Program-made: the position numbers and the translations under genes | In this document: positions 9,241 through 32,200 of the stretch, in pieces | Position numbering within the stretch: the first letter of the stretch is position 1 | How the letters are laid out: each line of letters opens with the position of its first letter | Notes under the pieces: model-generated | What the model was told of the DNA's origin: nothing | The model's input: only the letters and a program-made list of their open reading frames with translations | Database searches by the model: none | DNA from: Bacteroidales bacterium | GTDB lineage: Bacteria; Bacteroidota; Bacteroidia; Bacteroidales; VadinHA17 | Length of the DNA stretch: 39,244 nt | NCBI GenBank assembly: GCA_022865305.1 | Contig: JALHSP010000131.1 | Coordinates: forward strand, 1-39,244 | Direction of reading: 5' to 3'

Positions 9241-12027
9241 ATGAAAAGATTTCTGGTACTCGTTCAGATTATTTTATTTTTTCAATTCTGCAGCAGGGAC
9301 ATATCATCCGATTTTACGGCTGAACATCTTAAATGCAACAATCTCGAAAATCCTGCAGGGATTAATGAAGATCCGGTTTTCAGCTGGATTTCTGTATCAA
9401 ATATCAGAGGTGCCAGTCAGACAGCATACCAGATCATTCTTGACTCTGATGCAGGTACTCTGAAATCCGAAAAAGAATGTGCCTGGAATTCCGGGAAAAC
9501 CACGTCATCAGAATCCGCATGGATACCATGTTCCGGACCAGAACTTCAGACGGCAACAAAATATTTCTGGAAAGTAAGGATCTGGGATAATAATGATAAA
9601 CCATCGGAATGGAGTAAAACCGCGTTCTTTATTACCGGCTTATTTAAAGAAAAAGACTGGAGCGGGGCAAAGTGGATCGGATTTGAAGAGATCCCGGACT
9701 CAATGCTGCTGGTACCCGGAATACATAAAGGTATAAAGATTGAGGATGACCTTGCATCAAAAAGGTCAGTTGTTCCTTATTTCCGTAAAGAGGTTTCATT
9801 GAAGAAAAAGATCAAAGAAGCTTTTGTTTTTGTAAGCGGGCTTGGGCAGTATGAATTGTATATAAACGGAAACAAAATCGGTGATCGTTATCTTTCTCCT
9901 GGATGGACAGACTATGATAAGACATGTTACTATAACACATTTGATGTTACTAAAGAACTGAAACGCGGATCAAATGCAATCGGAGTTATTACCGGCAACG
10001 GTTTTTACAATATCAACAGGGAACGCTATTACAAACTTGTTATAACCTACGGGGCTCCGAAGCTGATCCTGAAGCTGCAAGTGCGATATACTGACGGTTC
10101 TGAGGTTGTTGTCACCACTGATCAGTCATGGAAGACAGCCCCATCGCCGGTCACCTTTGCCAGCATTTTCGGAGGAGAAGATTATGATGCAAGGCTTGAA
10201 CAACCGGGATGGAGCAGTCCTGGTTTTGACCACGGAAAATGGAAATTTGCATTACCGGTAAGGAAGCCGGAAGGCCGGCTAAAAGAAGAAGGCGACTACC
10301 CGGTAAAAGTTCTCCAGGCTTTTGATCCTGTTAGTATCTTCAATCCTGATACCGGCATTTATGTTTATGACTTCGGCCAGAATGCTTCAGGGATCATAAG
10401 CCTGAAAGTCATAGGCGAAAAAGGACAGGAAGTGCGCCTTAGTCCGGCTGAACTTATTGATAATGACTCTCTTATAACCCAGAAAGCTTCAGGTGCTCCT
10501 TATTATTTCTCTTATACATTGAACGGTAAAAACGAGGAGAAATGGACACCCAGGTTTACTTATTACGGATTCAGGTATGTACAGGTTCAGGGAGCCGTTC
10601 CTTCCGGCATGCCAAATCCGGCAAATCTCCCTGTTATTTCAGGTCTTCAGATGCTTCATACCCGAAATTCATCTCCAACTATCGGAAGCTTCAGATGTTC
10701 GAGCGAACATTTTAATTCAATTTACAATCTGATTGACTGGGCGATAAAAAGCAACCTCGCAAGTGTAGCCACCGATTGCCCACACCGTGAAAAGCTCGGA
10801 TGGCTTGAGCAGACACACCTGATGGGAAACTCAATAAAATATGTTTACGACATACATAACCTGTACAACAAAATGATTGATGATATGATCGAAGCTCAGC
10901 TCGAAAACGGCCTCGTCCCGAACATTGCACCTGAATATGTCGAGTTTGTCGGGGGATTTCGCGATTCACCCGAATGGAGCAGCGCCTGCATCATACTCCC
11001 ATGGGATCTTTACGAATGGTATGGAGATATTGAAGCTGTTAAAAAGGCATACCCGATGATGAAAAGATATATGGATTATCTTGGAATTCTGGCACCTGTA
11101 GGTATTCTAATTCACGGTCTGGGTGACTGGTACGACCTGGGACCGAAGTTCCCGGGAGTTGCTCAGCTCACCCGGAAATCTGTCACCGCAACATCGATAT
11201 ATTATTACGATGCTAAACTGCTCGCAAAAATGGCATCCCTGATCGGTGAAAACAGTGACGCCAATTATTATGAAGATCTTGCCGAACAGATAAGAATTGC
11301 ATTTAATAATGAATTCTTTGACCCTGAAACAAAAATCTATTCAACAGGCAGCCAGACAGCCTTTTCCATGCCATTGTTTTTCGGAATGGTTGATGATTCG
11401 TGTCATAGTGATGTTGTAGAAAACCTTGTAAAATCAATCAGGGAAAATAATAATGCTCTCACTGCCGGAGATGTCGGGTACCGCTATCTCATCAGAACAC
11501 TTGAGCAGGAAGGGCATTCACAACTCATCTTCGAGATGAACTCAAAAACCGATGTTCCTGGTTACGGATACCAGCTGTCGAAAGGGGCAACAGCACTCAC
11601 AGAATCATGGGCAGGTCTTGTCAATGTATCAAATAACCATATGATGCTGGGGCATCTGATGGAATGGTTTTACAGCGGCCTCGGGGGGATACGCCAGACA
11701 GAAGATTCCAAAGCTTATGAGGATATAATTATTGCACCTGAGATCGTGGGTGACATTACCTGGGTTGAAACTTCATATCAGACTATTCACGGAGAAATCA
11801 GAAGCTCGTGGAATATCTCAGATAATACCTTTACGCTAAAGGTCACAATCCCTGTAAACTGCAAGGCGACAATCAAAATACCTCAAGCCGATCCGGATAA
11901 GATAACTGAAAGCGGAATTCAATTGAAATCTTCAGACTACATAAAATTAATAGGCATGGCTGATGGTAAGACTCTATGTGGAGTTTCTTCGGGGGAATAT
12001 ATTTTTAAAACCAGCCTTAATAATTGA
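9241..12027 (+). CDS. GH78 alpha-L-rhamnosidase lipoprotein
   Basis: Releases terminal alpha-L-rhamnose from glycans, probably at the cell surface or in the periplasm. The protein has 928 residues with a lipoprotein signal (FQFCS, Cys17). Domains in order: an Ig-like N-terminal domain (about 25-130), a jelly-roll domain with VFVSGLGQYELYINGNKIGD (about 190-340), a concanavalin-like Rha domain (about 350-480), an (alpha/alpha)6 catalytic barrel (about 485-830) and a C-terminal beta-sandwich. The catalytic region has DCPHREKLGWLEQTH, giving Asp512 and Glu517, equivalent to the acidic pair of Bacillus RhaB. TESWAG carries Glu788, the likely base. The third acidic position of the classical GWxGD motif is Gln524, with Glu523 beside it. 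It is the first gene of a five-gene operon, with 6 bp to the next gene. Confidence 0.92.
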   Translation: MKRFLVLVQIILFFQFCSRDISSDFTAEHLKCNNLENPAGINEDPVFSWISVSNIRGASQTAYQIILDSDAGTLKSEKECAWNSGKTTSSESAWIPCSGPELQTATKYFWKVRIWDNNDKPSEWSKTAFFITGLFKEKDWSGAKWIGFEEIPDSMLLVPGIHKGIKIEDDLASKRSVVPYFRKEVSLKKKIKEAFVFVSGLGQYELYINGNKIGDRYLSPGWTDYDKTCYYNTFDVTKELKRGSNAIGVITGNGFYNINRERYYKLVITYGAPKLILKLQVRYTDGSEVVVTTDQSWKTAPSPVTFASIFGGEDYDARLEQPGWSSPGFDHGKWKFALPVRKPEGRLKEEGDYPVKVLQAFDPVSIFNPDTGIYVYDFGQNASGIISLKVIGEKGQEVRLSPAELIDNDSLITQKASGAPYYFSYTLNGKNEEKWTPRFTYYGFRYVQVQGAVPSGMPNPANLPVISGLQMLHTRNSSPTIGSFRCSSEHFNSIYNLIDWAIKSNLASVATDCPHREKLGWLEQTHLMGNSIKYVYDIHNLYNKMIDDMIEAQLENGLVPNIAPEYVEFVGGFRDSPEWSSACIILPWDLYEWYGDIEAVKKAYPMMKRYMDYLGILAPVGILIHGLGDWYDLGPKFPGVAQLTRKSVTATSIYYYDAKLLAKMASLIGENSDANYYEDLAEQIRIAFNNEFFDPETKIYSTGSQTAFSMPLFFGMVDDSCHSDVVENLVKSIRENNNALTAGDVGYRYLIRTLEQEGHSQLIFEMNSKTDVPGYGYQLSKGATALTESWAGLVNVSNNHMMLGHLMEWFYSGLGGIRQTEDSKAYEDIIIAPEIVGDITWVETSYQTIHGEIRSSWNISDNTFTLKVTIPVNCKATIKIPQADPDKITESGIQLKSSDYIKLIGMADGKTLCGVSSGEYIFKTSLNN

Positions 12028-12033
12028 CCTTTT

Positions 12034-14268
12034 ATGAAAATATTTAAAGACAGACAAATACTCATTTCCCTGTGTATTGTAATGACATTTGTTTCCTGCT
12101 CCACACAAAATACGACATTTCAGGGAGCAGACCGGAAACAGCATATTGATAAATCCTTTATCCAGGATTTTAGCATAAAATTCCGGATTGAATCCGGGGA
12201 TATCAAATTGATAAAGGTTGTTTCGGACAGAAACAATTACATCCAGATTCTGTCATCAAAAGGATTATTAAGACCGCGTGACGGACAATTCCTGTTTCCG
12301 GGTATTCTGGTTAAAGATTTTCAGGATCGCCAAACCTCTGATAAGAAGATCAGCGCTATAGGAACTTATATGGATCAGCTGGTATATCTTGACGATAAAG
12401 CTGTTCTAAGCAACGCCTGGGCAGGTACACTCTATTCACGTCATACTATGCCGGGTGCAAGAATTTTTGCTGGGGCAAAGGAATTTACCTTCTTACTTTC
12501 TGACGGGAAGAAGCTGATGCTTCTGAAAGATTCAGAGAATTTATGGGAAGGAAACATTCCCGGGGATGAAGTAAGGGACATAACTTATGATGAATCCAAT
12601 AATTCTTTCTGGATCCTGGGGAATCATTCAATCAGTGTTCTTTCTCCTGAAAAAAAGGAAATAAGAACAATTGAGAATAATGATAATCTAACTTGTATAG
12701 GAATAGTATCCGGAAAATTATTTGCAGGGACCAGAGACGGATACTTCGAGATAGATCTGAAAACCAATAAGAAACTTGAAGGGATTCATAAATCACTTCC
12801 ATCGACTGAAATAACCTGTATAACCGAAATTGACGGGAATCCTTGGTTTGGGACCACACAGGGAGCGTTTATGCTTCGCAACGACGGCAGGTTTAATTAT
12901 TATGCCTCTGAGCGCTGGCTGCCTTCTGACAATGTGATCGACATAGCCCGGGGACCGGATAATTCTGTTCTGATCCTCACCGAACAGGGTCTTGGACAGA
13001 TTTGTTTTAAAGAGATGACGCTTTATGATAAAGCATTGTTTTTTGAAAGACAGGTACGTGAACGTCATATCCGGACAGGTTTCAATGCGACCGTTGCTTC
13101 GATGAAGAATGGAGATGTGACATCGGGTAGTATGGCAGATTCTGACAATGATGGGTTGTGGACATCAATGTATCTGGCAGGGGAAACATTCCGCTATGCC
13201 GTAACCCGATCAGATGAGGCATTGCAAAACATCCGGGAGTCACTTGATGCCATGGAACGTTTATATACTATCAATCCGATACCGGGATTTCCTTCACGTT
13301 CATTCGAAAGGAGAGGGTATAAGTACGAAGACATCGCCTGGCGAAGGGCTGACGATGCGGAATGGGACTGGAAGTCAACTACCAGCAGTGATGAAGCTAT
13401 CGGACATATTTTTGCATTCGGAGCAATAGCTGAGCTGGTTGATAAGCCGGAGCTGCGTAATAAAGCAATTATGTTAATTGATACCCTTATGTCGCATATT
13501 ATTAAAAATAATTTTTACCTTATCGACTGGAACGGGGAACCGACCTTATGGGGAAGATGGAATCCTGATTATGTGAATGCCCGCCCTGTAATTGTAGGTG
13601 ACCGCAAACTCAATTCGTCAAATATTATCGCGATGCTGCAGACAGCTTATCATTTCACAGGTAAAGAAAAATATAAGGATGCTGCATTTTATCTTATGAA
13701 TGAACACGGTTACCTGAATAACCTGATGCGACCGATGAGCATTATCGGAAAAGCACCTGACGATTCCGATGATTTAAGCAAAGATCTTTCGGATAGCTGG
13801 AATCATTCTGATGATGAAATGTATTATTGTGGTTACTGGGGATTATACCGCTATACCTTTAATGATACTCTTAAAGCTATGTTCAAAGAAGCAATAATTG
13901 ATCATTGGAAAACCGAAAGGCCGGAGAAGGAAGGCCTCTGGAATATCATGACTGCAATTACCGGGGCCGAGGAAATTGATCTGGAAGAGGCAGTATGGTA
14001 TCTTCAGGAATTCCCTCTTGATCTTATAAACTGGACAGTAAAGAACAGTCAAAGAAAGGATATCAAATTTACCGAACCTAATTTCAGGAAACAAACAATT
14101 GAAGAAGTTCTGCCTCCCGATGAGCTCGGAATAAGCAGGCATAATTCCAACAGATTCGATCTCGATGAAAACGGAGGCGGCAGATCGGAATACAGCGCCG
14201 GAGATATCTGGCTGTTACCGTACTGGATCGGAAGGTACCTTGGTGTTATAAGTGAACCTGTAAACTAA
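12034..14268 (+). CDS. Lipoprotein with beta-propeller and helical-toroid domains, function unknown
   Basis: A lipoprotein of 744 residues (VSCST, Cys22). Residues about 50-345 look like a beta-propeller of the regulator-propeller type, with repeated W-F-G or G-T motifs (TCITEIDGNPWFGTTQGAF, VSGKLFAGTRDGYFEID). The rest (about 350-740) is mostly helical, with repeated aromatic-acidic segments such as SDNDGLWTSMYLAGETFRYA, SSDEAIGHIFAFGAIAELV and SDSWNHSDDEMYYCGYWGLY. These resemble an (alpha/alpha)6 toroid as used by several glycoside hydrolases and polysaccharide lyases. No known CAZy family can be named from the sequence alone. It lies between GH78 and GH2 with 6-bp spacings, so an enzymatic role on the same glycan is inferred. 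No membrane-spanning histidine kinase region follows the propeller, so it is not a hybrid sensor. Confidence 0.7.
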   Translation: MKIFKDRQILISLCIVMTFVSCSTQNTTFQGADRKQHIDKSFIQDFSIKFRIESGDIKLIKVVSDRNNYIQILSSKGLLRPRDGQFLFPGILVKDFQDRQTSDKKISAIGTYMDQLVYLDDKAVLSNAWAGTLYSRHTMPGARIFAGAKEFTFLLSDGKKLMLLKDSENLWEGNIPGDEVRDITYDESNNSFWILGNHSISVLSPEKKEIRTIENNDNLTCIGIVSGKLFAGTRDGYFEIDLKTNKKLEGIHKSLPSTEITCITEIDGNPWFGTTQGAFMLRNDGRFNYYASERWLPSDNVIDIARGPDNSVLILTEQGLGQICFKEMTLYDKALFFERQVRERHIRTGFNATVASMKNGDVTSGSMADSDNDGLWTSMYLAGETFRYAVTRSDEALQNIRESLDAMERLYTINPIPGFPSRSFERRGYKYEDIAWRRADDAEWDWKSTTSSDEAIGHIFAFGAIAELVDKPELRNKAIMLIDTLMSHIIKNNFYLIDWNGEPTLWGRWNPDYVNARPVIVGDRKLNSSNIIAMLQTAYHFTGKEKYKDAAFYLMNEHGYLNNLMRPMSIIGKAPDDSDDLSKDLSDSWNHSDDEMYYCGYWGLYRYTFNDTLKAMFKEAIIDHWKTERPEKEGLWNIMTAITGAEEIDLEEAVWYLQEFPLDLINWTVKNSQRKDIKFTEPNFRKQTIEEVLPPDELGISRHNSNRFDLDENGGGRSEYSAGDIWLLPYWIGRYLGVISEPVN

Positions 14269-14274
14269 TAGCTA

Positions 14275-16974
14275 ATGAAAAAGAAATTATTTCTCATTAA
14301 TTTTCAATTATTAACTGCTGCGATCCTGCTTCTGTTTGCAGGATGCAATAAACCGGATAAACCTGTTCTTTCAGTTTGTAAATCATTGACTGAAAACTGG
14401 AAAATGCAGGCATCCGACAGGTTGCAAGGCGTTGCAGAAGAACAGATTTCAATGAATAGTTTCAATGATGCTGATTGGTATAAAGCATCTGTCCCTGGCA
14501 CAGTGTTGGGAAGTTTAGCATCCTTTGGCGTCATTGAGGATCCCTATTTCGGGATAAACATGCAGAAGGTTGATCCCGGACAGTTCAAACAGCCATGGTG
14601 GTTTCGCTCAACAATCACTCTTACAGGTGATGATATGAAAAAAAATGTGTCCTTGCGGTTTAATGGAATTAACTACAGGGCTGACTTATGGGTAAACGGG
14701 GAAAAAATTGCCGGCAAGGATAGTTTTGCCGGAACATACAGGATGTTCACATTCAATATTGATAAATACAAACATGAAGGTGAAAATTCAATAGCTTTAA
14801 AAATATGGCAGCATGCTGATGGTGAGTATTCAATTGGTTTTGTCGATTGGAATCCTCTCCCGCGCGACAGAAACATGGGTATCTTCAGGGAGGTTTTTCT
14901 GGAAATTAATGAAGGAGTCAAAATCCGGAGCCCCTTTGTATATTCAAAACTAACCACAGGTCTGAAAAATGCTGCTGACCTTTTTATTCAGGCTGAAATA
15001 ATCAACAGCTCTGAAAAAAACGTAAAAGGAATTCTTCGGGTTGATTATGAATTAGGGAAGGTAGAGAAAAAAGTATATCTGAAACCAGATGAAACGTTAT
15101 CCTGCACCTTTGATCCGGGGGAATTCAGCCAGTTATCAGTAAAAGACGCAGACCTGTGGTGGCCTAACGGCATGGGCAATCCCAGGCTATATAATCTTAA
15201 GGCTGAATTTTTAACGGGCAATAAAATCATTGACAGGATAGAAAAAAAGTATGGTATCAGGCAAATAACCAGTTATTTAAATGAAGCCACAAACCGTGTT
15301 TTTGAAATAAACGGAAGATTTGTTTTAATTAAAGGAGGCGGCTGGACGGATGATGTTCTGCTTCAGGATACAAGAAAGTCTGTTGAAGCACAGCTGAGAT
15401 ATGTCCGCCATATGAATATGAACAGTATTCGTTGCGAAGGCTTCTGGGGAAAGGATGAAACCCTGTATGACCTCTGCGATGAATACGGGATCCTTGTGAT
15501 GATTGGATGGAACTGTCACTGGGAATGGGAGGAATATCTGCTTAAGCCTTGCGATGAGAAATATGGAGGCGCAGTAAGCGATGAAGACATAAGCCTGCTG
15601 GCCGATTCATGGAAAGACCAGATGCTCTGGTTGCGAAATCATCCCAGTATCTATGTGTGGATGCTAGGCAGCGATAAGCTTCCGGCACCTAAGCTGGAAC
15701 AGAAATATATTGAATTATTTAAGAAATATGATCCTTCGCGAACCTATTTAACTTCTGCCGGGGGTGCCGGGACGGAAACCAGTAATGTTGTGGCCGAAGT
15801 ACCTTTAGTCAGCGATATAAGCGGTCCGACTGGAATGAAAATGCTTGGACCTTACGCTTTTACTCCCCCTGTGTACTGGTTTACAGATACTCATCTGGGC
15901 GGTGCCTGGGGATTTAACACGGAAACATGTCCCGGGGAAAATATTCCACCTGTTGCTTCACTACGGAAAATGTTACCGGAGGAGAGCTTATGGCCGATCG
16001 ACAAAAAATACTGGGAGTATCATACAGGGAGGAACGAATTTACAACACTGGACCGGTTTCGCAATGCACTGTCCCGGCGATATGGAGAATCTTCGAATGT
16101 CGATGAGTTCGCTTTTAAATCCCAGGTCAGCAATTATGAAGTCATGCGCCCGATGTTCGAGGCATTCATTGCTCATAAACCTGTAAGTACAGGATTAATC
16201 CAGTGGAAGCTTAATTCTGCCTGGCCTGAGCTGATCTGGCAGTTATATGATACTTATCTTCAGCCGAATGGCTCTTTTTACGCAGTCAGAAAAGCCTGTA
16301 ATCCACTCGATGCCATTTACAGATACGGATATGATGACATTTATCTTGCAAATGAAGATTTACTTGATGCTGATAGTGTAACAGTGAATATCAGAGCCTT
16401 AGACATTAATTCAAAACAGATATTTGACGATCAATGGCAAGGCAGCATTGAATCAAATAAATCAATGTTTATCTTTAAACTACCTGAAATAAAAAACCTT
16501 ACTTCAGTCTGGTTCCTTGACCTGAGGGTGTATGATAAAAACAACAAAGAGGTTGATAACAGTATTTACTGGTTATCCCTTAAAAAAGATATCATGGATT
16601 ATGAAGCTGCCAAAAAGCTTCCATGGCCATATTATACTCCGACAAAACAATTTGCCGATTTTACCGCTCTTGATAAATTGCCGGCAATTAAATTGCAGTA
16701 CGATTACACCTTCAGTAAAGATGAAAAATACGGCAAGGTTAGTTTAAGGGTGAAAAATCCATCAGAGGCTATAGCATTCTTTATCTTTATTGATGTTATT
16801 GATACAGAAACCGGAAAACCGATTTTGCCTGTCTACTGGAATGACAATTATGTCACTCTTCTGCCGGGAGAAGAACGGATTTACGAGGCTGACTACTTCC
16901 TAACTGACTCACGTTGCACAAAACCGCTATTGGAAGTCCAGGCATGGAATGTGGATAAAGTATCTTTAAACTAA
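14275..16974 (+). CDS. GH2 exo-beta-glucosaminidase/mannosidase-like lipoprotein
   Basis: A retaining glycoside hydrolase of 899 residues with a lipobox (FAGCN, Cys24). Domains: sugar-binding jelly roll (about 40-220), Ig-like domain (about 230-335), TIM barrel (about 336-640) and C-terminal Ig-like domains. The acid/base motif is MLGSDKLP, with Asp467, instead of the usual NE of GH2 galactosidases. This Gly-Ser-Asp form is known from exo-beta-D-glucosaminidases (CsxA type) and endo-beta-mannosidases. The nucleophile is likely Glu550 in FNTETCPGENIPP. The substrate is therefore probably a beta-linked hexosamine or mannoside. The gene sits in the rhamnosidase operon, 6 bp after the toroid gene. 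Confidence 0.88.
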   Translation: MKKKLFLINFQLLTAAILLLFAGCNKPDKPVLSVCKSLTENWKMQASDRLQGVAEEQISMNSFNDADWYKASVPGTVLGSLASFGVIEDPYFGINMQKVDPGQFKQPWWFRSTITLTGDDMKKNVSLRFNGINYRADLWVNGEKIAGKDSFAGTYRMFTFNIDKYKHEGENSIALKIWQHADGEYSIGFVDWNPLPRDRNMGIFREVFLEINEGVKIRSPFVYSKLTTGLKNAADLFIQAEIINSSEKNVKGILRVDYELGKVEKKVYLKPDETLSCTFDPGEFSQLSVKDADLWWPNGMGNPRLYNLKAEFLTGNKIIDRIEKKYGIRQITSYLNEATNRVFEINGRFVLIKGGGWTDDVLLQDTRKSVEAQLRYVRHMNMNSIRCEGFWGKDETLYDLCDEYGILVMIGWNCHWEWEEYLLKPCDEKYGGAVSDEDISLLADSWKDQMLWLRNHPSIYVWMLGSDKLPAPKLEQKYIELFKKYDPSRTYLTSAGGAGTETSNVVAEVPLVSDISGPTGMKMLGPYAFTPPVYWFTDTHLGGAWGFNTETCPGENIPPVASLRKMLPEESLWPIDKKYWEYHTGRNEFTTLDRFRNALSRRYGESSNVDEFAFKSQVSNYEVMRPMFEAFIAHKPVSTGLIQWKLNSAWPELIWQLYDTYLQPNGSFYAVRKACNPLDAIYRYGYDDIYLANEDLLDADSVTVNIRALDINSKQIFDDQWQGSIESNKSMFIFKLPEIKNLTSVWFLDLRVYDKNNKEVDNSIYWLSLKKDIMDYEAAKKLPWPYYTPTKQFADFTALDKLPAIKLQYDYTFSKDEKYGKVSLRVKNPSEAIAFFIFIDVIDTETGKPILPVYWNDNYVTLLPGEERIYEADYFLTDSRCTKPLLEVQAWNVDKVSLN

Positions 16975-16986
16975 TAATCCGGATTT

Positions 16987-18279
16987 ATGGAAAAACTAGC
17001 ATTACTCGGTGGCAAACCTGTGAGGGATATCAGAGTCAATCCATGGCCCAAATGGCCTGTATGGGATCAGAATGAAGAAAAAGCATTAATTGAGACACTA
17101 AATAGCGGAATATGGTCGTACAATGGTCCCATGGAGACGGAGTTTAACAGGAGATTTGCCGAATTCACCGGTACAAAATATGCGATCTCTGCAGCAAATG
17201 GTACTGTAACACTTCAGATGGCATTGGAAGCATGCGCCATCGGAGTGGGTGATGAAGTGATACTACCCGGCCTGACATGGCAGGCGACAGCAGCTACAAT
17301 TATTGATGTAAATGCAACTCCGGTTCTTGTAGATGTTTGTGAAGATAACTGGTGCATTGACCCAAAAGCAATCGAAAATGCAATTACTCCAAGAACAAAA
17401 GCAATCATACCGGTCCATCTTTATGGATCTTTCTGCGATATGGATGAAATTTTAAAAATCGCATCAAAACATCATCTCTATATTATTGAAGATTGCGCGC
17501 ACAAGCATGGCGGGGAATGGAATGGTTTGAAGGCCGGTAGCATAGGGAATATCGGCAGTTTCAGTTTTCAATTGTCAAAGCTTTTGACAGCAGGAGAGGG
17601 AGGTGCTTTAACCACAAACGATTTTAAACTCGCAGAAAGGCTTGATGCTTTGAGAAATTGCGGGAGGCGACCCATCGAAATGAAAAAAGCCGTTGATAAA
17701 TACGTTGATAAAGGTGCCGGTGTCTATTCAGACCAGGGTAACTTTCTTCAGTCAGGCAACTACAGGATTACTGAATTTCAGGCTGCTCTGTTAATCGAAG
17801 GACTTAAAAGACTGCCTGAACAAAACCGGGTACGGGATGAAAATGGAATTTACATGAATTCTCTTTTGGCTGCAATTCCCGGTGTAACACCCATGAAAAG
17901 GGACAAAAGAGAAACCAGGGAAGCCTACTATAATTTCTCATTCAGATATAAGCAAAATGAGTTTAAAGGCCTGGCAGTAAGTAAATTCAGAGAAGCACTG
18001 ACTGCAGAATCAGGGATCCAGGTTTCACCAAGTTATGAACCTTTAAATAACTGTTCTTTGTATGTGCCTCTGACAAAACCCGCACGCCATAAGCTGAATG
18101 ATAAATACTGGAAGGGAATTGATCCGAAACGATTCAGGTTGCCTGTTTGTGACCGGATTTATCATGAAGAATCAATATGTATTCATCATAAAGTGCTGAT
18201 GGGTATCAAAGCTGATTTGGAACTGATCGCCGCAGCCATTTTTAAAATCTATGATAACGCGGAGTCGCTGCTGAAATAG
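16987..18279 (+). CDS. DegT/DnrJ/EryC1/StrS-family PLP-dependent aminotransferase
   Basis: A sugar aminotransferase-type enzyme of 430 residues (fold type I, PLP). Seen: an N-terminal WPVWDQNEEKALIETLNSG, the cofactor pocket ISAANGTVTLQMALEA, IIEDCAHKHGGEWNG with the Asp that binds the pyridine nitrogen, and the Schiff-base lysine in FQLSKLLTAGEGGALTTND (Lys198). The family makes or converts amino sugars on nucleotide-sugar or cyclitol substrates; some members act as dehydratases or in aminocyclitol pathways. Its place inside a catabolic operon is unusual and suggests that it handles an imported keto- or amino-sugar rather than building O-antigen. There is no signal peptide, so it acts in the cytoplasm. 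Confidence 0.9.
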   Translation: MEKLALLGGKPVRDIRVNPWPKWPVWDQNEEKALIETLNSGIWSYNGPMETEFNRRFAEFTGTKYAISAANGTVTLQMALEACAIGVGDEVILPGLTWQATAATIIDVNATPVLVDVCEDNWCIDPKAIENAITPRTKAIIPVHLYGSFCDMDEILKIASKHHLYIIEDCAHKHGGEWNGLKAGSIGNIGSFSFQLSKLLTAGEGGALTTNDFKLAERLDALRNCGRRPIEMKKAVDKYVDKGAGVYSDQGNFLQSGNYRITEFQAALLIEGLKRLPEQNRVRDENGIYMNSLLAAIPGVTPMKRDKRETREAYYNFSFRYKQNEFKGLAVSKFREALTAESGIQVSPSYEPLNNCSLYVPLTKPARHKLNDKYWKGIDPKRFRLPVCDRIYHEESICIHHKVLMGIKADLELIAAAIFKIYDNAESLLK

Positions 18280-18344
18280 GAAAATTGCTACAGTTAAATA
18301 AAGGAGCTGTCAAAACATTTTTAAGCTATTTAATAAATCAATCA

Positions 18345-20492
18345 ATGAAGAAAATTATCATTCTGCTTTCTGCTTACCTGAGATACGGTAACATTTGGAA
18401 ATCAGTTATTCTTTCCGCTGTTCTGTGTATTAATTTTAGTCTGGTCAATGCAGATCCCCCTCAAAAAAGAGCAGAAAAGTCAATATTCACTTCAGAACAT
18501 GTTTTTCCTCTTCAAAGCCAGCACGTTCACGGTAGTTCACTGGTGGAGCTGCCCAACGGAGATTTGCTCTGTTGCTGGTTCGAGGGTTCAGGTGAGCGGA
18601 CCGCTAATGATGTCGTGATAAAAGGTGCACGCCAGCATAAAGGAGAATCCGGATGGAGTACCCCTTTTATAATGGCAGACACCCAAAATAATCCTGATTG
18701 TAATCCGGTGCTGTTCATCGATAATAACAACCGGTTGCACCTTTCATGGATTGTTGTTGTCGCAAACCAGTGGGAAAGATCCATTTTAAAGACAAGAATA
18801 TCAACCGACTATCAAAACGAAGGAGCCCCAAAATGGCAATGGCAGGATATTGTACTGTTAAAACCGGGTGAAGAATTTGCAAAAACAATAGAGCAAAAGT
18901 TCAGGGAATTAAAAACTCCTGAGCCTGCCTGGGCTGCATACGCGCCCATTTATGAAAAAATGATCATCGAAGCAGCAAAAGATGCTTCCAAAAGAGAAGT
19001 CGGATGGATGACAAGAATTCATCCGTTAATACTTCCGTCAGGAAGAATACTGTTACCATTATATTCAGACGGATTTAATGTCTCCCTGACAGCTATATCA
19101 GATGATAACGGTGATACCTGGTCACCGAGTCTTCCAATAGTCGGACGTGGAAATGTTCAGCCTTCAATTTTGAGAAAAAAGGATGGTACTCTGGTAGCAT
19201 ATATGCGTGACAACGGAGATGCCCCGGGAAGAATAATTGAAAGCATTTCAAAAGATAACGGATATGAATGGAGCGTTACACATAAAACAGACCTCCCCAA
19301 TCCGGGATCAAGTGTTGAGGCTATTTCACTGAAAGATGGCAGGTGGCTGTTGGTTCATAATGACCGGGAAGAGGGAAGACACAGGCTGGCGGTAAGCCTT
19401 TCTGATGATGAAGGAAAAACATGGAAAGTGACAAAGTACCTGGAAAATGTACAAAAAGGTGAAGGCAGTTTTTCCTATCCTTCGGTTATCCAGGGAAAGG
19501 ACGGGTTGATTCATATTACCTATTCATATCATTTAAAAGATAAAAAGACAATAAAACATGTTTGTTTTCCTGCAAGCTGGGCAGAAGGAAAAGATATCAA
19601 AATCACAAATGCGGAAAAGCTTGGTTTTCCGGCCGGGAAGAAGGTTATACTTCTTCATATTGATGATGCAGGAATGTGTGATGAGGCTAATATCGCGACC
19701 CGGCATTATTTTGAGACCGGGGATTTACGATCGACTGCCGTAATGGTACCCTGTCCTTACGCTGAAGATCTGATTAAATGGGCAAAAAAACAAAAATCAC
19801 CAGACATTGGAATTCATCTTACATTGACCAGCGAGTGGAAAAACTATCGCTGGGGGCCGGTTGCTGATCCCGACAAAGTACCGGGGCTTATTGATCCGGA
19901 GGGAAAACTGTGGCATGACGTCCCGGATGTGGTTATGCATGCATCTGCAGAAGAGGTTGAAACAGAAGTCCGTGCACAGATTGACAAAGTACTGGCAATG
20001 GGATACACTCCTACTCATATCGATACCCATATGGGAACCCTGTACGGTTCTGCCGAATACGTGAAGGTTTTTCTGAAAATTGCAGCAGAATACAATATCC
20101 CTGCAAATGCAATTGACCTTTCCGATACTGTAATAGCAGAAAATTTCAGGAAAGAGGGTTATCCTGTTACAGGAGAGGTGGTTGAATTATTAAATCAATA
20201 CGCCTTGCCAAAGCTGGATAATTTCTCCAGTGTGCCAGACGGCAAATCGTACGAAGAAAAACGGGCAGGTTTCTTTGCGCTGGTAACCTCTTTAAATGCC
20301 GGATTAACAGAGATTATTTTTCATCCTTCGGTTGAAACAGATAACCTTAAAACAATCACAAATTCATGGCAGCAACGTGTCTGGGAAGCTCAATTATTTT
20401 CGGATCCCGCAGTCAGGAATTTTTTTGCCGATGAAGGTGTGGTTATAACGACATGGAAAGAGATTATGGAACGGCATAAAAAAAGGAATTAA
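18345..20492 (+). CDS. Fusion: BNR/sialidase-like domain plus YdjC/ChbG-type deacetylase
   Basis: A predicted secreted protein of 715 residues from the preferred start at 18345 (MKKIIILLS begins a signal peptide; an in-frame ATG at 18285 is less likely). The N-terminal half (about 40-415) is a six-bladed sialidase-like (BNR_2) fold with Asp-box-like repeats SDDNGDTWS, SKDNGYEWS and SDDEGKTWK. The C-terminal half (about 425-710) matches YdjC/ChbG, a metal-dependent N-acetyl-sugar deacetylase: HIDDAG (Asp440, Asp441), GIHLTLTSEW (His491), THIDTHMG (His558, His562) and IIFHPS near the end. A bifunctional exo-acting enzyme that removes a sugar and deacetylates a neighbouring amino sugar is inferred. 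Sialic acid itself is not proven as substrate, because many BNR_2 proteins act on other sugars. Confidence 0.82.
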   Translation: MKKIIILLSAYLRYGNIWKSVILSAVLCINFSLVNADPPQKRAEKSIFTSEHVFPLQSQHVHGSSLVELPNGDLLCCWFEGSGERTANDVVIKGARQHKGESGWSTPFIMADTQNNPDCNPVLFIDNNNRLHLSWIVVVANQWERSILKTRISTDYQNEGAPKWQWQDIVLLKPGEEFAKTIEQKFRELKTPEPAWAAYAPIYEKMIIEAAKDASKREVGWMTRIHPLILPSGRILLPLYSDGFNVSLTAISDDNGDTWSPSLPIVGRGNVQPSILRKKDGTLVAYMRDNGDAPGRIIESISKDNGYEWSVTHKTDLPNPGSSVEAISLKDGRWLLVHNDREEGRHRLAVSLSDDEGKTWKVTKYLENVQKGEGSFSYPSVIQGKDGLIHITYSYHLKDKKTIKHVCFPASWAEGKDIKITNAEKLGFPAGKKVILLHIDDAGMCDEANIATRHYFETGDLRSTAVMVPCPYAEDLIKWAKKQKSPDIGIHLTLTSEWKNYRWGPVADPDKVPGLIDPEGKLWHDVPDVVMHASAEEVETEVRAQIDKVLAMGYTPTHIDTHMGTLYGSAEYVKVFLKIAAEYNIPANAIDLSDTVIAENFRKEGYPVTGEVVELLNQYALPKLDNFSSVPDGKSYEEKRAGFFALVTSLNAGLTEIIFHPSVETDNLKTITNSWQQRVWEAQLFSDPAVRNFFADEGVVITTWKEIMERHKKRN

Positions 20493-20712: not shown

Positions 20713-21648
20713 ATGAAAAAGTTGATCCACATCGTGTGCTTTGCATTAGCTGTCGGATCGACTCTTCTTACATCGTGTAATAAAGAGGAGCCGGATGGTC
20801 CGCCCAAAGCGGGTATATTCTACAGCGTTGCTGATAAGCAGGTGGCATTTACCGCGTTAACAAAACGTGTCGTCTCCTGGAGCTGGGATTTCGGGGATGG
20901 AGATACAAGCAGTGAGCAGAACCCGATACATGTCTATGAGAACGGTGGGTACTATACAGTCACTCTTACCGGAACTGATGCTGCTGGTACAACTGCTGAA
21001 GCAGAAGTTGATATAGCTGTTGCAGTGACTCCTTATGTATTGCTTACAGGGGGACCTACTGCTGTTAATGGGAAAAAATGGAAACTTACAGCAAATCATA
21101 CTGCAAAAGATAAGCTGGCAAATGCGGACGCTACTTTTACAATAGCAGCCGGGGCTCCGGCAACACTTCCGGCAGGTGCGTTTAGCTTGTACCTTAGTAT
21201 GGGAGAAGTGTATGAGGATGAATACACTTTTTATTTTGACGGCAGGTATTCTCACGATACTAAAGCTGACGGAGCTGCATTCAGTGGTATCCTTTATCAA
21301 TTTATGACTACCGGCGGTGCAGGAATTGTTAATGACGGAGGTGCAAGTTTCGGACTTTGCACCGGGTTATATACACCCCAGGCAGGAGCAACTTTCACTT
21401 ATGTCGAGAAGGAAGATTTCGCGGTTCAATCTGTTTATGGAACGGCAGGGATTTTAACCTATATCAATGTCAGCACTCTTGATTTTTCCGGAACAGAGTT
21501 TGTTGGATTTATGGATTATCAGCGGAAAGTAATTGTTCAGGAAATAACAGATAATTCCATGAGGCTCGTTATGTTTATGGCTGCCAGCCAAGATTATTAT
21601 TCCTACAATACGCACGCTCTGGTTCTCACTTTCGAAGTAGTCAGATAA
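20713..21648 (+). CDS. PKD-domain surface lipoprotein, likely glycan-binding
   Basis: A lipoprotein of 311 residues (LTSCNK, Cys22) with one PKD domain at about 32-105. Its hallmark is [20 protein letters not shown] followed by [15 protein letters not shown]. The remaining 200 residues are rich in beta strands, Gly and aromatic residues ([35 protein letters not shown]) and resemble the C-terminal part of surface glycan-binding or SusE/F-like proteins. There is no enzymatic motif. It lies directly before SusC (35 bp) and probably serves as the accessory surface glycan-binding protein of the transporter. Confidence 0.82.
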
Positions 21649-21683: not shown

Positions 21684-24600
21684 ATGAAAAATAAATATCT
21701 GTATATGATTTTCATAAGGCACATGTTAACTACAACAGCAATTATTACTTTGCTTTGGGGTACTACATGGGCCGGTTCTGCATACCCAGGTAAAACAGAG
21801 TTTCCAGGTATATTAGCGGATCAGCAGGGTATAGTTGTTACGGGACTGGTAACTTCGCTTGTTGATAATACCGCTTTACCGGGCGTCAGTATCGTGGTCA
21901 GGGGAACTCAGAGAGGGACTCTTACAAATGCTTCCGGGGAATACAGCATTGAGGTCCCCGGGAATGATGCGATACTGGTTTTTTCTTTTATCGGTTTTAG
22001 AACAGAGGAGGTACCTGTTAATGGCAGGAGAGAAATCAATATCGCCTTAAGTGAATCTATTGAAGCGCTCGATGAGGTAGTTGTCACTGCACTGGGTATT
22101 ACAAGAAAGGAAAAATCACTTGGATATTCCGTAGGCAAAGTCAGCGGTGAAAATCTGACCAGGGTTGTCCAGGAAAATGCTATAAATTCACTCGCCGGTA
22201 AAGTCACTGGGGTCCAGATCAGCTCCACCGGGGGAACCGGCTCATCAGTCAGCATGATTATCAGGGGTGCAACTTCCTTAAGTAATGATAATCAGCCTTT
22301 ATTTGTTGTGGATGGAGTCCCGATCGTGAATACATTGAATAATATTTCCGGATTTGGCAGCGATAACCGTGTGGATTACGGAAATGCAATTTCTGACCTG
22401 AATTCTGACGATATTGAAAGCGTGTCTGTTTTAAAGGGCCCCAGTGCTGCGGCACTATATGGTTCCAGGGCAGGAAACGGCGTTGTACTTATTACCACAA
22501 AATCGGGGCAGAAAAACAGAGGGATGAAGGTGAATTTCAGCACCAATAATGTATTTGATATGCCTTACAAATATTTTCCGGTGCAGAAAAAATTTGCCAC
22601 CGGGTATTTTTCATTTACCCCCGAGGATTTCCCTCCCGGATATGTTTTTAAAGTCAATCCTGCTGAAGCTGTCGGGGCAGGTATTGAATTGGATAAAGAG
22701 TATTTTGCAGTTCAGTGGAACAGTCCGGTAGATGCAAACGGAGTTCAGGTCCCGACTGAGCTTGTAAGCCACCCTGACAATGTTGCAAACTTCGTACAAA
22801 CAGGAATTACATCCACAAACGAAATCTCTATTTCAAACAATACGGAGTTGTTGAATTACAGGATCGGAATATCGAATATGTCTAACAGGGGAATTATACC
22901 AAATTCTGACCTGTTCAGGAATAATCTGACAGCGGCAACTTCTGTTAAGGTACGGGATAATTTTACGGTCAGTTCCAACATTAATATCAGCATGTCATGG
23001 TCAAACAATCGTCCGGCAAGCAACAGGGGCACAAATCCTTTGCAATGGGCATATAATGTTCCGCAAAATACCGATATCCTTTATCTCAAAAATTACTGGG
23101 AAGAGGGACAGGAAGGCGTTCAGCAAATGACCCCTTATAACGGTCTCTACAATAACCCATATTTCCTGGCATACGAGGTGAATAACAGTTTTAACAGGGA
23201 CAGGGCTTTCGGTAACCTGAAAGCCGACTGGAAGATAACCAAGGATTTTAGCCTGATGGCAAGATATTCGCTTGACCAGTTTTCCGAAAAGCGTGAATCA
23301 AAAATTTCACCGAGCTATACAGGAGAACCTAATAATGGTGCTTATGGAATTCAGAATATTACCAGCTACGAACGTAATGTTGATGTTCTCGCAACATATT
23401 CAAAGCAGATGAGCAGTATCAGCTTATCTGTTTCTGCCGGGGCCAACGCCCTATATAAGAAAGGTACATCAATAGGTAATTCATCCATGTCGGGAGCAGG
23501 CCTTATTGTTCCTAACGTATATACGCTCAGCAACATAAAATCAGGATCTTTAAGCTATGGCAGCTATTGGTCCCAGAAGGCGATTTACAGTGTTTATGGA
23601 CTTATTAATCTTGGGTGGAAGGATATGATTTTCCTCGATATTACAGGACGAAACGACTGGTCGAGTACATTGCCAATAGAAAACAGATCCTATTTCTATC
23701 CGTCAGCCTCATTAAGCCTTCTAATTGATCAGATGATTAACATGGGTAAGGGTGTCGACCTGTTTAAGATCAGGGGAGGATGGGCTAAAGTCGGTAACGA
23801 TACAGACCCATATCAGCTCTACAATACCTATGGGAATGCCGGACAGTGGGGTGATGCAACCAGATTGTCCAAATCGGGTCAGATTCTGACTCCAAATTTA
23901 AAACCGGAAGAAGCTGTTTCAATGGAAGCCGGACTCGATTTGAGTCTGTTTAAAAGCAGGTTGCGATTTGAGGGAACCTATTATGTTGTTGAAAACCGCA
24001 ACCAGATAATAAGGAATATTCCTGTTGCCAGTTCGACAGGGTCTGATTATGTTAACATTAATGCAGGTTTGATCAGAAGCAAAGGCTGGGAATTTATGAT
24101 TGGAGGCACTGTTGTAAAAACCCCCTTATGGAACTGGGACATCAGTGCTAATTTCACACGCAACAGAACAAGGGTTATTGAAATTGCCGAGGGAATAGAG
24201 GTAATTAAGTTCTGGGAAGATGCCAAGGGAGGTGCCTGGTCGTATGTCGGGGATGAAATAGGTACAATTTATGATGCTGAGGTTCGCACAGTTACAGACG
24301 AAAGCTCTCCTTATTTTGGTTATCCCATACTTAGTGAAGATGAACTTGAATGGGATGACATTGAAATGAAAAATACCAAAAACAAAATCGGTAATTATAA
24401 TCCCAGGTTTATTATGGGGCTGCAGAGTTCGCTTTCATATAAGGCTTTTTCTTTGAATATGACAGTTGACTGGAGAAACGGCGGGCAGTTCATTTCCCAA
24501 ACCCAGCGATATATGGCTGAAGACGGTTCTTCACAGCTATGGCTTAATAACCTGATCAACCCCGGCGGGAGGACAGGGAAAGAGCTTCGTGACTGGCTTG

Positions 24601-25130
24601 TCGCAAATGAGGATAAATTTATTAAAAACGGATTTCATGTGATAGGTGGTCCTACAGCCGAATATGGCGGATTTGAAGAAAACTTCAGTGGGGTGTATGT
24701 AACAGACGGGGTATTCGTCCCCGGCGTATGGGCTGTTCCTGATGGCGAAGGAGGGGTAACATACGTTGAAAATCTGGGAGAAACCGGAACCGTAATTGTC
24801 CCTTATGCAGTGAGTTATCCATGGGGATTTGCCAAACCTTCAATGTTTGATGCCGACTTTATTAAGCTGAGAGAGATCTCATTAAGTTATAACGTACCCC
24901 GCAGCGTATTAAACCGGTTTAAATCAGTTGAGAATATTGCTGTATCACTTTACAGCCGGAATATCATTCTCTGGACTAAGGCAAAAGCCGGTATTGATCC
25001 TGAAAGGGCTTTCCAGGCAGAAAGTTCAACAGAGGGCACAAGAGGCACTCAATTCAAACAGGGAATTGAAAGATATAACCTGGAACCCTGGGTAATCCCG
25101 GTTGGTATCAAAATAGACATTACTTTTTAG
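21684..25130 (+). CDS. SusC-like TonB-dependent outer-membrane receptor
   Basis: An outer-membrane beta-barrel of 1148 residues that imports oligosaccharides using TonB energy, working with the SusD lid protein. In order: an extended signal peptide, a carboxypeptidase-regulatory-like domain (VTGLVTSLVDNTALPGVSIV, about 50-130), the TonB box region DEVVVTALGI (about 135-145), the plug domain (about 150-260, with SLAGKVTGVQISSTGG and PLFVVDGVPIVN), and a long barrel ending in the typical aromatic terminus VGIKIDITF. The motif LKGPSAAALYGSRAGNGVVL is diagnostic of the SusC/RagA group. It lies 35 bp after the PKD gene and 21 bp before susD. Confidence 0.97.
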   Translation: MKNKYLYMIFIRHMLTTTAIITLLWGTTWAGSAYPGKTEFPGILADQQGIVVTGLVTSLVDNTALPGVSIVVRGTQRGTLTNASGEYSIEVPGNDAILVFSFIGFRTEEVPVNGRREINIALSESIEALDEVVVTALGITRKEKSLGYSVGKVSGENLTRVVQENAINSLAGKVTGVQISSTGGTGSSVSMIIRGATSLSNDNQPLFVVDGVPIVNTLNNISGFGSDNRVDYGNAISDLNSDDIESVSVLKGPSAAALYGSRAGNGVVLITTKSGQKNRGMKVNFSTNNVFDMPYKYFPVQKKFATGYFSFTPEDFPPGYVFKVNPAEAVGAGIELDKEYFAVQWNSPVDANGVQVPTELVSHPDNVANFVQTGITSTNEISISNNTELLNYRIGISNMSNRGIIPNSDLFRNNLTAATSVKVRDNFTVSSNINISMSWSNNRPASNRGTNPLQWAYNVPQNTDILYLKNYWEEGQEGVQQMTPYNGLYNNPYFLAYEVNNSFNRDRAFGNLKADWKITKDFSLMARYSLDQFSEKRESKISPSYTGEPNNGAYGIQNITSYERNVDVLATYSKQMSSISLSVSAGANALYKKGTSIGNSSMSGAGLIVPNVYTLSNIKSGSLSYGSYWSQKAIYSVYGLINLGWKDMIFLDITGRNDWSSTLPIENRSYFYPSASLSLLIDQMINMGKGVDLFKIRGGWAKVGNDTDPYQLYNTYGNAGQWGDATRLSKSGQILTPNLKPEEAVSMEAGLDLSLFKSRLRFEGTYYVVENRNQIIRNIPVASSTGSDYVNINAGLIRSKGWEFMIGGTVVKTPLWNWDISANFTRNRTRVIEIAEGIEVIKFWEDAKGGAWSYVGDEIGTIYDAEVRTVTDESSPYFGYPILSEDELEWDDIEMKNTKNKIGNYNPRFIMGLQSSLSYKAFSLNMTVDWRNGGQFISQTQRYMAEDGSSQLWLNNLINPGGRTGKELRDWLVANEDKFIKNGFHVIGGPTAEYGGFEENFSGVYVTDGVFVPGVWAVPDGEGGVTYVENLGETGTVIVPYAVSYPWGFAKPSMFDADFIKLREISLSYNVPRSVLNRFKSVENIAVSLYSRNIILWTKAKAGIDPERAFQAESSTEGTRGTQFKQGIERYNLEPWVIPVGIKIDITF

Positions 25131-25151: not shown

Positions 25152-26804
25152 ATGTGTACAATAAGAAATAAAATTTCAGCTGCTTTGGTTCTGTTTATGA
25201 TTTTCATCGTTTCATGTCAGAAACTGGAAGAACTGAATATTAATCCGAATGGCGTTGACCCGGCAAATGCACATCCATATCTCCTGATGAGCACTGTTTT
25301 AACATATACCGGGCAGAGTGTTGTCGGCCTGGGTTTCGGAGATATTGCCGGAGTTATGCAGCATACACAGAAAGACGGATGGTCGGGATCGCATAATTCT
25401 TATGACTGGTCAGACCAGAACTGGGGAGGTTATTACGGGATACTGAGGAATGCTGAGGAGATGCTGAAAAAATCCCAGGATATGGGACTTGAATTTTATG
25501 AAGGAGTAGCATTGATAATGAAAGCCTACAATTATGGTTTAATCACTGATTTGTGGGGTGATGCACCCTTTTCAGAAGCTCTTTTCGGAGAAACAGGCAA
25601 TTTAAAACCGGCTTATGATTCCCAGAAAGATATTTATACCGGGATTCTCGCTTATCTTGAAAATGCAAACACTTTGTTGTCGAAAAATCAAAACGAATAT
25701 GAGGGCATTAACTCTACACAGGATGTCCTGTATGACGGTTCAGTTGCAAAATGGCAAAAATTAGCCAATTCCCTTGCACTGAGATATTATATGAGAATCT
25801 CTGCAAAAGAATCTGCTGTTGCACAAGCAGGAATAGAGAAAATTGCAGGTAATCCGGACCAGTACCCGCTCATCCTTGATGCTGCCGAAGATGCAACTAT
25901 CTGTTATATCGGAAACAGTTCCTCTGATTCGTGGCCTTGCAATACAACTTTCGATCTTAGCGAAACCAACTGGAGAAGAATTAAAATGTGCTCAACCCTG
26001 GTTGAAAGGCTGCAGGCTCTTAATGATCCCCGGCTGGCGGTATGGGCAAATAAGATAGAAATTCCTATTGTTGTTGATCCGACAAAACCTGATGGTTACG
26101 ATGAGATAGTTGCAGGGGAACGTGTTATTGCGCAGAACGTAGCCAACAATTACGAATCAACCTTTGGCGTACCGCTTAACCTGGATCCGGAATATATTGG
26201 CCTCCCTCCTGCCTGGTCAATGGTCCCACAGGCATACAATCTGTGCCCTAACCTTGAGCAGGCCCCCCTTAATCCGCACGCGTCGCATCTGAATAATATC
26301 TATAAGAAAGCCTCCGGAGGACTTCTAAAATCCAGACTGATGACAGCTGCAGAAGTTAATTTCATCCTTGCAGAAGCAGCCCTTAAAGGCTGGACTACCG
26401 GGAATACTGCTGCCGGGCATTATAATGCAGGGGTAAAAGCTTCTCTTGAATCCTGGGGACTGGGTGATTCCTATGATACATATATTTCCCAAACAGGCGT
26501 TGAATACAATGGAACCTTGGATCAGATCATTGAACAAAAATGGATAGCCAGCTGGACTGCTGCTGCCGAATCCTGGTTCGATTACAGAAGAACCGGGCTC
26601 CCGGCTCTGACACCTGGTACTGTTGTTAAAAGGAATGCAATTCCTCTCAGGTTTTATTATGGCACAAACGAACTATTATATAATCCTGATAAAGTTGAGG
26701 ATGCAATTGCAGGTCTGGAAGCAACAACATTTTCATCAACTGACGGGAAAAACAGTCCATGGTCAAAAACCTGGCTTTTGCAGGGTACAGGTAAACCATG
26801 GTAG
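25152..26804 (+). CDS. SusD/RagB-like surface glycan-binding lipoprotein
   Basis: The outer-membrane lid and glycan-binding partner of SusC, 550 residues. Lipobox IVSCQK (Cys22) followed by LEELNINPNGVDPANAHP, a common SusD-like beginning. The helical TPR-like scaffold is visible in WGGYYGILRNAEEMLKKSQD and VALIMKAYNYGLITDLWGDA (substrate-channel region). The C-terminal part shows LMTAAEVNFILAEAALKGW and the EQKWIASWTAAAESWFDYRR motif characteristic of the SusD_2 (PF12771) group. It follows susC closely and ends before a clear terminator. Confidence 0.97.
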   Translation: MCTIRNKISAALVLFMIFIVSCQKLEELNINPNGVDPANAHPYLLMSTVLTYTGQSVVGLGFGDIAGVMQHTQKDGWSGSHNSYDWSDQNWGGYYGILRNAEEMLKKSQDMGLEFYEGVALIMKAYNYGLITDLWGDAPFSEALFGETGNLKPAYDSQKDIYTGILAYLENANTLLSKNQNEYEGINSTQDVLYDGSVAKWQKLANSLALRYYMRISAKESAVAQAGIEKIAGNPDQYPLILDAAEDATICYIGNSSSDSWPCNTTFDLSETNWRRIKMCSTLVERLQALNDPRLAVWANKIEIPIVVDPTKPDGYDEIVAGERVIAQNVANNYESTFGVPLNLDPEYIGLPPAWSMVPQAYNLCPNLEQAPLNPHASHLNNIYKKASGGLLKSRLMTAAEVNFILAEAALKGWTTGNTAAGHYNAGVKASLESWGLGDSYDTYISQTGVEYNGTLDQIIEQKWIASWTAAAESWFDYRRTGLPALTPGTVVKRNAIPLRFYYGTNELLYNPDKVEDAIAGLEATTFSSTDGKNSPWSKTWLLQGTGKPW

Positions 26805-32049: not shown

Positions 32050-32200
32050 AGACCTTTTTTTCTGATTTACACTATTTGTCAAAGTTGCTGATTTAAGCTA
32101 ATATTTCAAAGAGCAACACTTTAAACCTTTTAAATGATGAAATAATGTCTTATTACAATTATTTCTTATATATTTGACTATCAACATATTAAAAATCTAC

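Follow-up and report, generated by a model that had tools for sequence, protein, structure and literature searches.

The 39,244-nt stretch of Bacteroidales DNA analyzed here (contig JALHSP010000131.1, referred to below as the window) carries, between two glycoside hydrolase genes, an ORF for a 744-aa protein that seems to combine an N-terminal β-propeller with a C-terminal helical toroid. The question raised by this locus is whether such proteins make up a new family of CAZymes and, if so, what kind of reaction they might catalyze and on which glycans.

Gene setting and the N-terminal propeller

The ORF starts with ATG and is separated by only 6 nt from each of its neighbors (the GH78 gene ends at position 12027 and the GH2 gene starts at position 14275), the same tight spacing that the earlier note had pointed out. 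The GH2 protein aligns over residues 55-893 of its 899 with the solved structure 2vzs (E 6.3e-139). The genes downstream of it form a same-strand run that encodes the DegT/DnrJ aminotransferase, BNR/YdjC, PKD-domain, SusC, SusD, and ceramidase-like proteins listed in Table 1, followed by a protein whose match to PHP lies under the cut-off. The BNR and YdjC domains, which share one ORF in the window, are encoded by separate genes of the same stretch in several relatives. A second protein with a neutral-ceramidase-like N-terminal domain, under the Pfam cut-off, is encoded at 30493-32082 (-); both ceramidase-like proteins of the window are shorter than the solved ceramidases, and their relatives recur near members of the propeller-toroid family. 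A plasmid search returned no match.

Table 1. Features of the propeller-toroid protein and of the neighboring genes in the window
Feature	Position	Strand	Basis
Propeller-toroid protein, 744 aa	12034..14268	+	No Pfam family at E 0.1
Signal peptide, lipobox-like FVSC (Cys22 at 12097-12099)	12034..12099	+	Sequence; motif judged by eye
Reg_prop-type β-propeller, residues 38-335 (approximate limits)	12145..13038	+	Profile A3 and Reg_prop
Probable α/α toroid, proposed catalytic domain, residues 336-744	13039..14265	+	hhalign, second alignment, reversed decoys, stand-alone versions
D373	13150..13152	+	197/199 propeller-bearing toroids; Asp not aligned in either stand-alone toroid
D453 (TSSD453), proposed catalytic acid or base	13390..13392	+	201/201
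D593 (SD593DEMY), proposed catalytic acid or base	13810..13812	+	201/201
Y730 of the C-terminal PYW..RY motif	14221..14223	+	201/201
GH78 α-L-rhamnosidase	9241..12027	+	Pfam Bac_rhamnosid6H, 2.3e-96
GH2, exo-β-D-glucosaminidase-like	14275..16974	+	2vzs match
DegT/DnrJ aminotransferase	16987..18279	+	Pfam and NCBIfam
BNR sialidase-like domain fused to YdjC deacetylase-like domain, one ORF	18285..20492	+	Pfam and NCBIfam
PKD-domain protein	20713..21648	+	Pfam
SusC	21684..25130	+	NCBIfam
SusD	25152..26804	+	Pfam
Neutral-ceramidase-like N-terminal-domain protein	26914..28311	+	Domain match

The lipobox recognized in the earlier note can be discerned by eye in the window protein but does not appear to be conserved in the family: a loose regular expression fits 46 of the 107 Met-start family ORFs, the window protein included, a count that mis-called starts may have lowered.

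By homology, the N-terminal half is a sensor-type β-propeller, in agreement with its propeller-like appearance in the earlier note. Profile A3, which comprises 55 family members, matched the solved propellers of HTCS sensors 4a2l (E 9.1e-35), 3v9f (2.1e-31), and 3ott (2.2e-26), as well as 3va6. With an E limit of 0.5, the Reg_prop domain (Pfam PF07494) was detected in 29 of the 55 members; the window protein alone reached only 0.14, and divergent family members gave values down to 1.5e-24. Unlike in the HTCS sensors, the propeller precedes a toroid in place of the Y_Y_Y, kinase, and regulator domains, and the Pfam search detected no kinase, receiver/regulator, or Y_Y_Y domain in the window protein. 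The only NCBIfam match of this protein is weak and confined to the propeller region; this match, to PorZ (E 9.6e-4), scores 17.7 bits where the cut-off is 260 and was taken as a generic propeller match. The profile finds a match somewhere in 40 of 41 related genomes, where the listed matches outside the family fall on the propeller part, many of them in ORFs of more than 1000 aa, and the propeller-only matches from the homologue search carry histidine-kinase domains.

No GH or PL family could be assigned above the curated cut-offs, either in Pfam (the window protein and ten divergent relatives) or in NCBIfam (the window protein and one relative). A Pfam search with 55 members yielded only noise-level matches to GH127 (3 of 55, best E 0.032) and GH3_M (0.083). 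The weak matches to SidE_mART (3 of 55, best 3.6e-4) and Baculo_VP39 (2 of 55, best 0.0036) were taken as chance. The earlier note had likewise been unable to place the protein and had suggested an HMM search against CAZy families; the searches of Pfam and NCBIfam gave no convincing catalytic match. Judged against these two databases, the propeller-toroid protein is a candidate for a new CAZyme family.

Fold and conserved residues of the helical half

Residues 336-744 were compared by profile-profile alignment (hhalign) with toroid families and with 44 controls, which were the families of neighboring genes and included SusD and GH92, itself a toroid. The reference sets, from which short or stop-containing loci, among others, were left out, used 16 of 20 loci for GH127, 19 of 20 for GH88, 18 of 20 for AGE, 10 of 16 each for PL10 and PL5, and 8 of 16 for the MGH1-like family. 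The best score was obtained against the α/α barrel of GlcNAc 2-epimerase (AGE, PF07221; 52.1, E 3.6e-6, 310 columns), followed by PL5 alginate lyase (PF05426; 48.1 over 206 columns), GH127 (PF07944; 38.5, above the controls, although its sequence-level Pfam matches are mere noise), PL10 (27.9), and GH88 (24.1, under the best control). The two highest-scoring controls reached 25.9 and 22.5, and known toroid pairs, compared under the same conditions, scored 46.5, 51.2, and 55.7. The MGH1-like family (15.6) and GH92 (17.5) stayed at background, so the test misses some toroids. In AGE alignments of lower rank, the register moves along the barrel, as expected from its internal symmetry.

The toroid also occurs without the propeller. 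The 406-aa product of L068:20805-22025 (-), which by eye has a signal-peptide-like start, covers profile positions 337-638 (E 9.9e-53) and has no match in Pfam or among solved structures; a second stand-alone toroid is encoded at L228:9530-10753 (-). In a second, overlapping alignment that included the stand-alone toroids, PL5 scored 46.0, AGE 41.9, GH127 29.9, GH88 26.3, and PL10 21.5, with the controls at or below 22.3 and reversed decoys at or below 20.1. AGE, PL5, and GH127 thus beat all controls in both alignments, as well as the reversed decoys; PL10 does so only in the first alignment and GH88 only in the second, and the MGH1-like family and GH92 are at background in both. Neither sequence nor profile searches with the toroid turned up a relative among solved structures, the best match (E 0.61) being a fragment of Abl interactor. 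Chou-Fasman helix propensity separated toroids poorly from propellers (helix-favored fraction of 0.64 in the C-terminal half, 0.53 in AGE, and 0.46 in BNR) and was given no weight. Residues 336-744 probably form an α/α toroid, an assignment well supported by these profile comparisons. The helical toroid proposed in the earlier note is a probable one, with AGE and PL5 above all 44 controls and two further toroid families at background.

Residue conservation was assessed in 199 propeller-bearing and 2 stand-alone toroids (201 rows, 200 of them distinct, with 176 representatives at 90 percent identity). Arg422, Ser451, Asp453, Thr504, Asp593, and Tyr730 (R422, S451, D453, T504, D593, and Y730) are kept in every row, and W446, W506, and P511 each occur in both stand-alone toroids and in 198 of the 199 that bear a propeller. 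All 199 propeller-bearing toroids have R674 and D676, but the stand-alone ones do not share D676. No Glu residue of the toroid alignment reaches such conservation. The only near-invariant His, H345, is located at the very start of the helical half (186 of the 189 letters at this position, where 12 rows have a gap; stand-alone toroids included), whereas the other His residues vary (H458 is found in 183 of the 201 rows and H591 in 122). The acidic-aromatic segments that the earlier note had likened to an active site are present as conserved motifs with invariant acids, and they may form such a site. On visual inspection, a hydrophobic, helix-like stretch follows both D453 and D593; a crude helix prediction placed the two residues near segment ends, not helix starts, and was given no weight either way. 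An Asp-pair hydrolase relying on D453 and D593 would be the simplest reading of this conservation pattern, and the near-invariance of H345 leaves room for His-based or lyase chemistry.

Distribution and gene neighborhoods of the family

Of the 7999 sequences scored in the protein search, 2995 had E values of 0.001 or less, and some of these may match through the propeller alone. The best 120 of the 2995, nearly all named “hypothetical protein,” are 69 to 78 percent identical, except for the window protein itself and P0033 (46 percent); a second homologue search was evaluated over the best 120 of its 2621 matches. At least 563 stretches of the genome collection encode a relative, and the best 80 of these all bear Bacteroidota names. 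A toroid is carried by 7 of 395 sampled Bacteroidota genomes, a tally that may be low, as no more than two candidates were scored per genome (74 genomes had some match, most of them propeller-only). Among the 41 related genomes, the family is present in 8 of 25 from the same genus, in one case split over two contig ends, and in 1 of 16 others. The distribution of the family is therefore patchy. The window and the best 80 of the at least 563 confirmed loci were taken as a set of 81 stretches. At least two family ORFs, fragments included, are found in 45 of them, and 134 of their 137 family ORFs could be aligned, 98 being close to the window type and 36 falling into three groups with 24 to 30 percent identity to the window protein.

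Because a single lineage, Dyadobacter, contributes several of the loci, the neighbor counts in the 81 stretches, which stand without a background rate, are not independent: SusC or SusD is encoded in 35 stretches and DUF3748, the most frequent partner besides these and the family itself, in 31, followed by metallophosphoesterases of three clusters (18), BNR (18), GH92 (13), YdjC (10), and a protein with a weak GH20b-like N-terminus (cluster 11; 10). Rarer neighbors include DUF5009 (6 stretches), GDPD, ROK, and ceramidase-like proteins (5 each), GH20 (4), the exo-glucosaminidase-like GH2 and DegT (3 each), and GH78 (2). Sugar- or phosphoester-related classes, counted without SusC/D, DUF3748, and cluster 11, are present in 47 stretches, and in 60 once SusC/D is added; the 34 stretches outside the 47 lack any of the counted classes, and 23 of the 81 stretches are shorter than 20 kb. 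Neighbor order is similar within same-strand runs with gaps of up to 300 nt. A further 14 of 21 stretches, the others overlapping or being in the set already, come from nine genomes, two of which seem to be represented before; in these 14, mostly the same partners were found by best BLAST match, some at only 22 to 30 percent identity; one member (L229) is surrounded by GDPD, phosphoesterase, DUF5009, GH20, ROK, BNR, YdjC, and SusC/D, and another locus (L228) has few such partners. DUF3748 (cluster 3) is exemplified by L021:8345-9736 (+). The cluster 11 protein, exemplified by L068:17738-20125 (-), is about 790 aa long; its N-terminus weakly resembles GH20b/GH67N, sequence searches found no solved relative, and it may be another glycosidase.

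These neighbors support a glycan-degradation context, but the partnership with GH78 does not generalize, and its presence in just 2 of the 81 stretches disfavors rhamnogalacturonan, one of the substrates suggested in the earlier note, as the family substrate. The rhamnose link is local to the window and one relative, several loci share the amino-sugar link, and the phosphodiester link is recurrent. As the neighbor mix varies and 34 stretches lack the counted classes, no single substrate is fixed.

Proposed function and alternative readings

With moderate confidence, we favor the view that these proteins are exported toroid hydrolases of amino-sugar-containing glycans that employ the propeller as a binding platform and an Asp pair in an inverting mechanism. 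The window protein would be an exported two-domain enzyme, probably lipid-anchored in the source species, produced from an operon that also encodes SusC and SusD. Its N-terminal HTCS-type propeller would hold the glycan, and the C-terminal toroid would hydrolyze a glycosidic bond, most likely with inversion and with D453 and D593 as the foremost candidates for the Asp pair. The most likely substrate would be an oligosaccharide that contains amino sugars and belongs to a larger glycoconjugate, in many cases a phosphorylated one, and the products could pass to the GH2 exo-glucosaminidase-like enzyme, the deacetylase, and the aminotransferase of the same operon. Toroid CAZymes with an added domain are a known kind; to our knowledge, a toroid joined to a sensor propeller has no precedent. 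If correct, this assignment would add a CAZyme family of unusual architecture, in which a signaling-type propeller is reused as an enzyme platform, and the fusions and neighbors narrow the search for its substrate and make the function testable.

The fusions bear on whether the module is catalytic at all. A GH20 domain is fused to it in 7 of the 82 proteins examined (P0239-P0243, P0276, and P0279) and in L042; these relatives share the propeller-toroid module, which is C-terminal to GH20, and differ from the window protein by the N-terminal β-hexosaminidase domain. Other partners are GDPD (P0022), a GH43-like domain (P0266), and BNR sialidase-like domains (P0281 and P0283, in which the propeller match is confined to its later part), and self-tandem fusions of the module also occur. 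The 1406-aa GH20-propeller-toroid fusion encoded at L042:5683-9903 (+) adjoins a self-tandem copy. Among the long relatives examined, the partners joined to the module, other than further copies of it, are predicted sugar or phosphodiester hydrolases. These fusions and the operons count in favor of the enzyme reading but would also fit a non-catalytic partner, that is, an exported glycan-binding protein whose propeller and toroid present oligosaccharides to partner enzymes or to SusC/SusD. The sensor type of the propeller speaks for this alternative, and the direct fusions to GH20, GDPD, GH43-like, and BNR domains could mark an accessory module. Such a role appears unlikely, as the invariance of the acidic residues in all 201 toroids and the existence of toroids free of the propeller would be more typical of catalysis.

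A toroid-fold polysaccharide lyase or epimerase, with chemistry nearer that of PL5 or AGE, is a rather improbable alternative to hydrolysis, even though these two families gave the best profile matches and Y730, R422, and (nearly so) H345 are invariant, stand-alone toroids included. With PL5, the toroid shares a helix-pair motif and the C-terminal L-PY motif, but the NNH stretch of PL5, part of its catalytic motif (NNH...Y), falls on no invariant site of the toroid alignment. The catalytic residues of AGE are His residues in the barrel, whereas the family has no invariant His in the AGE-aligned part (residues after ∼360), where H458 is the best conserved one and which H345 precedes. The window protein further differs from AGE in having an export signal and no Pfam AGE match, and an exported epimerase would be unusual.

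Membership in a recently created CAZy family that is absent from Pfam and NCBIfam is conceivable, given that the creation of new GH families continues (PMC12102758), but it seems rather doubtful in view of the lack of a convincing catalytic match in these databases and of any description of a propeller-toroid protein among the literature matches listed.

Within the favored reading, that of a toroid hydrolase, a specialization of the family for phosphodiester-linked lipid or inositol glycans (GPI-anchor-like or glycosyl-inositol-phospholipid), with the propeller docking the phosphoglycan over the barrel, must be considered very unlikely. The same low likelihood applies jointly to the accompanying suggestions that the locus would also remove phosphate or glycerophosphate (by metallophosphoesterases and GDPD) and α-mannose (by GH92) and would strip β-HexNAc (by GH20), sialic-acid-like caps (by BNR), and N-acyl groups (by YdjC and ceramidase-like proteins).

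Elsewhere in the window, the ORF at 36190-38634 (+) combines GH43-like and GH28/pectate-lyase-like matches.
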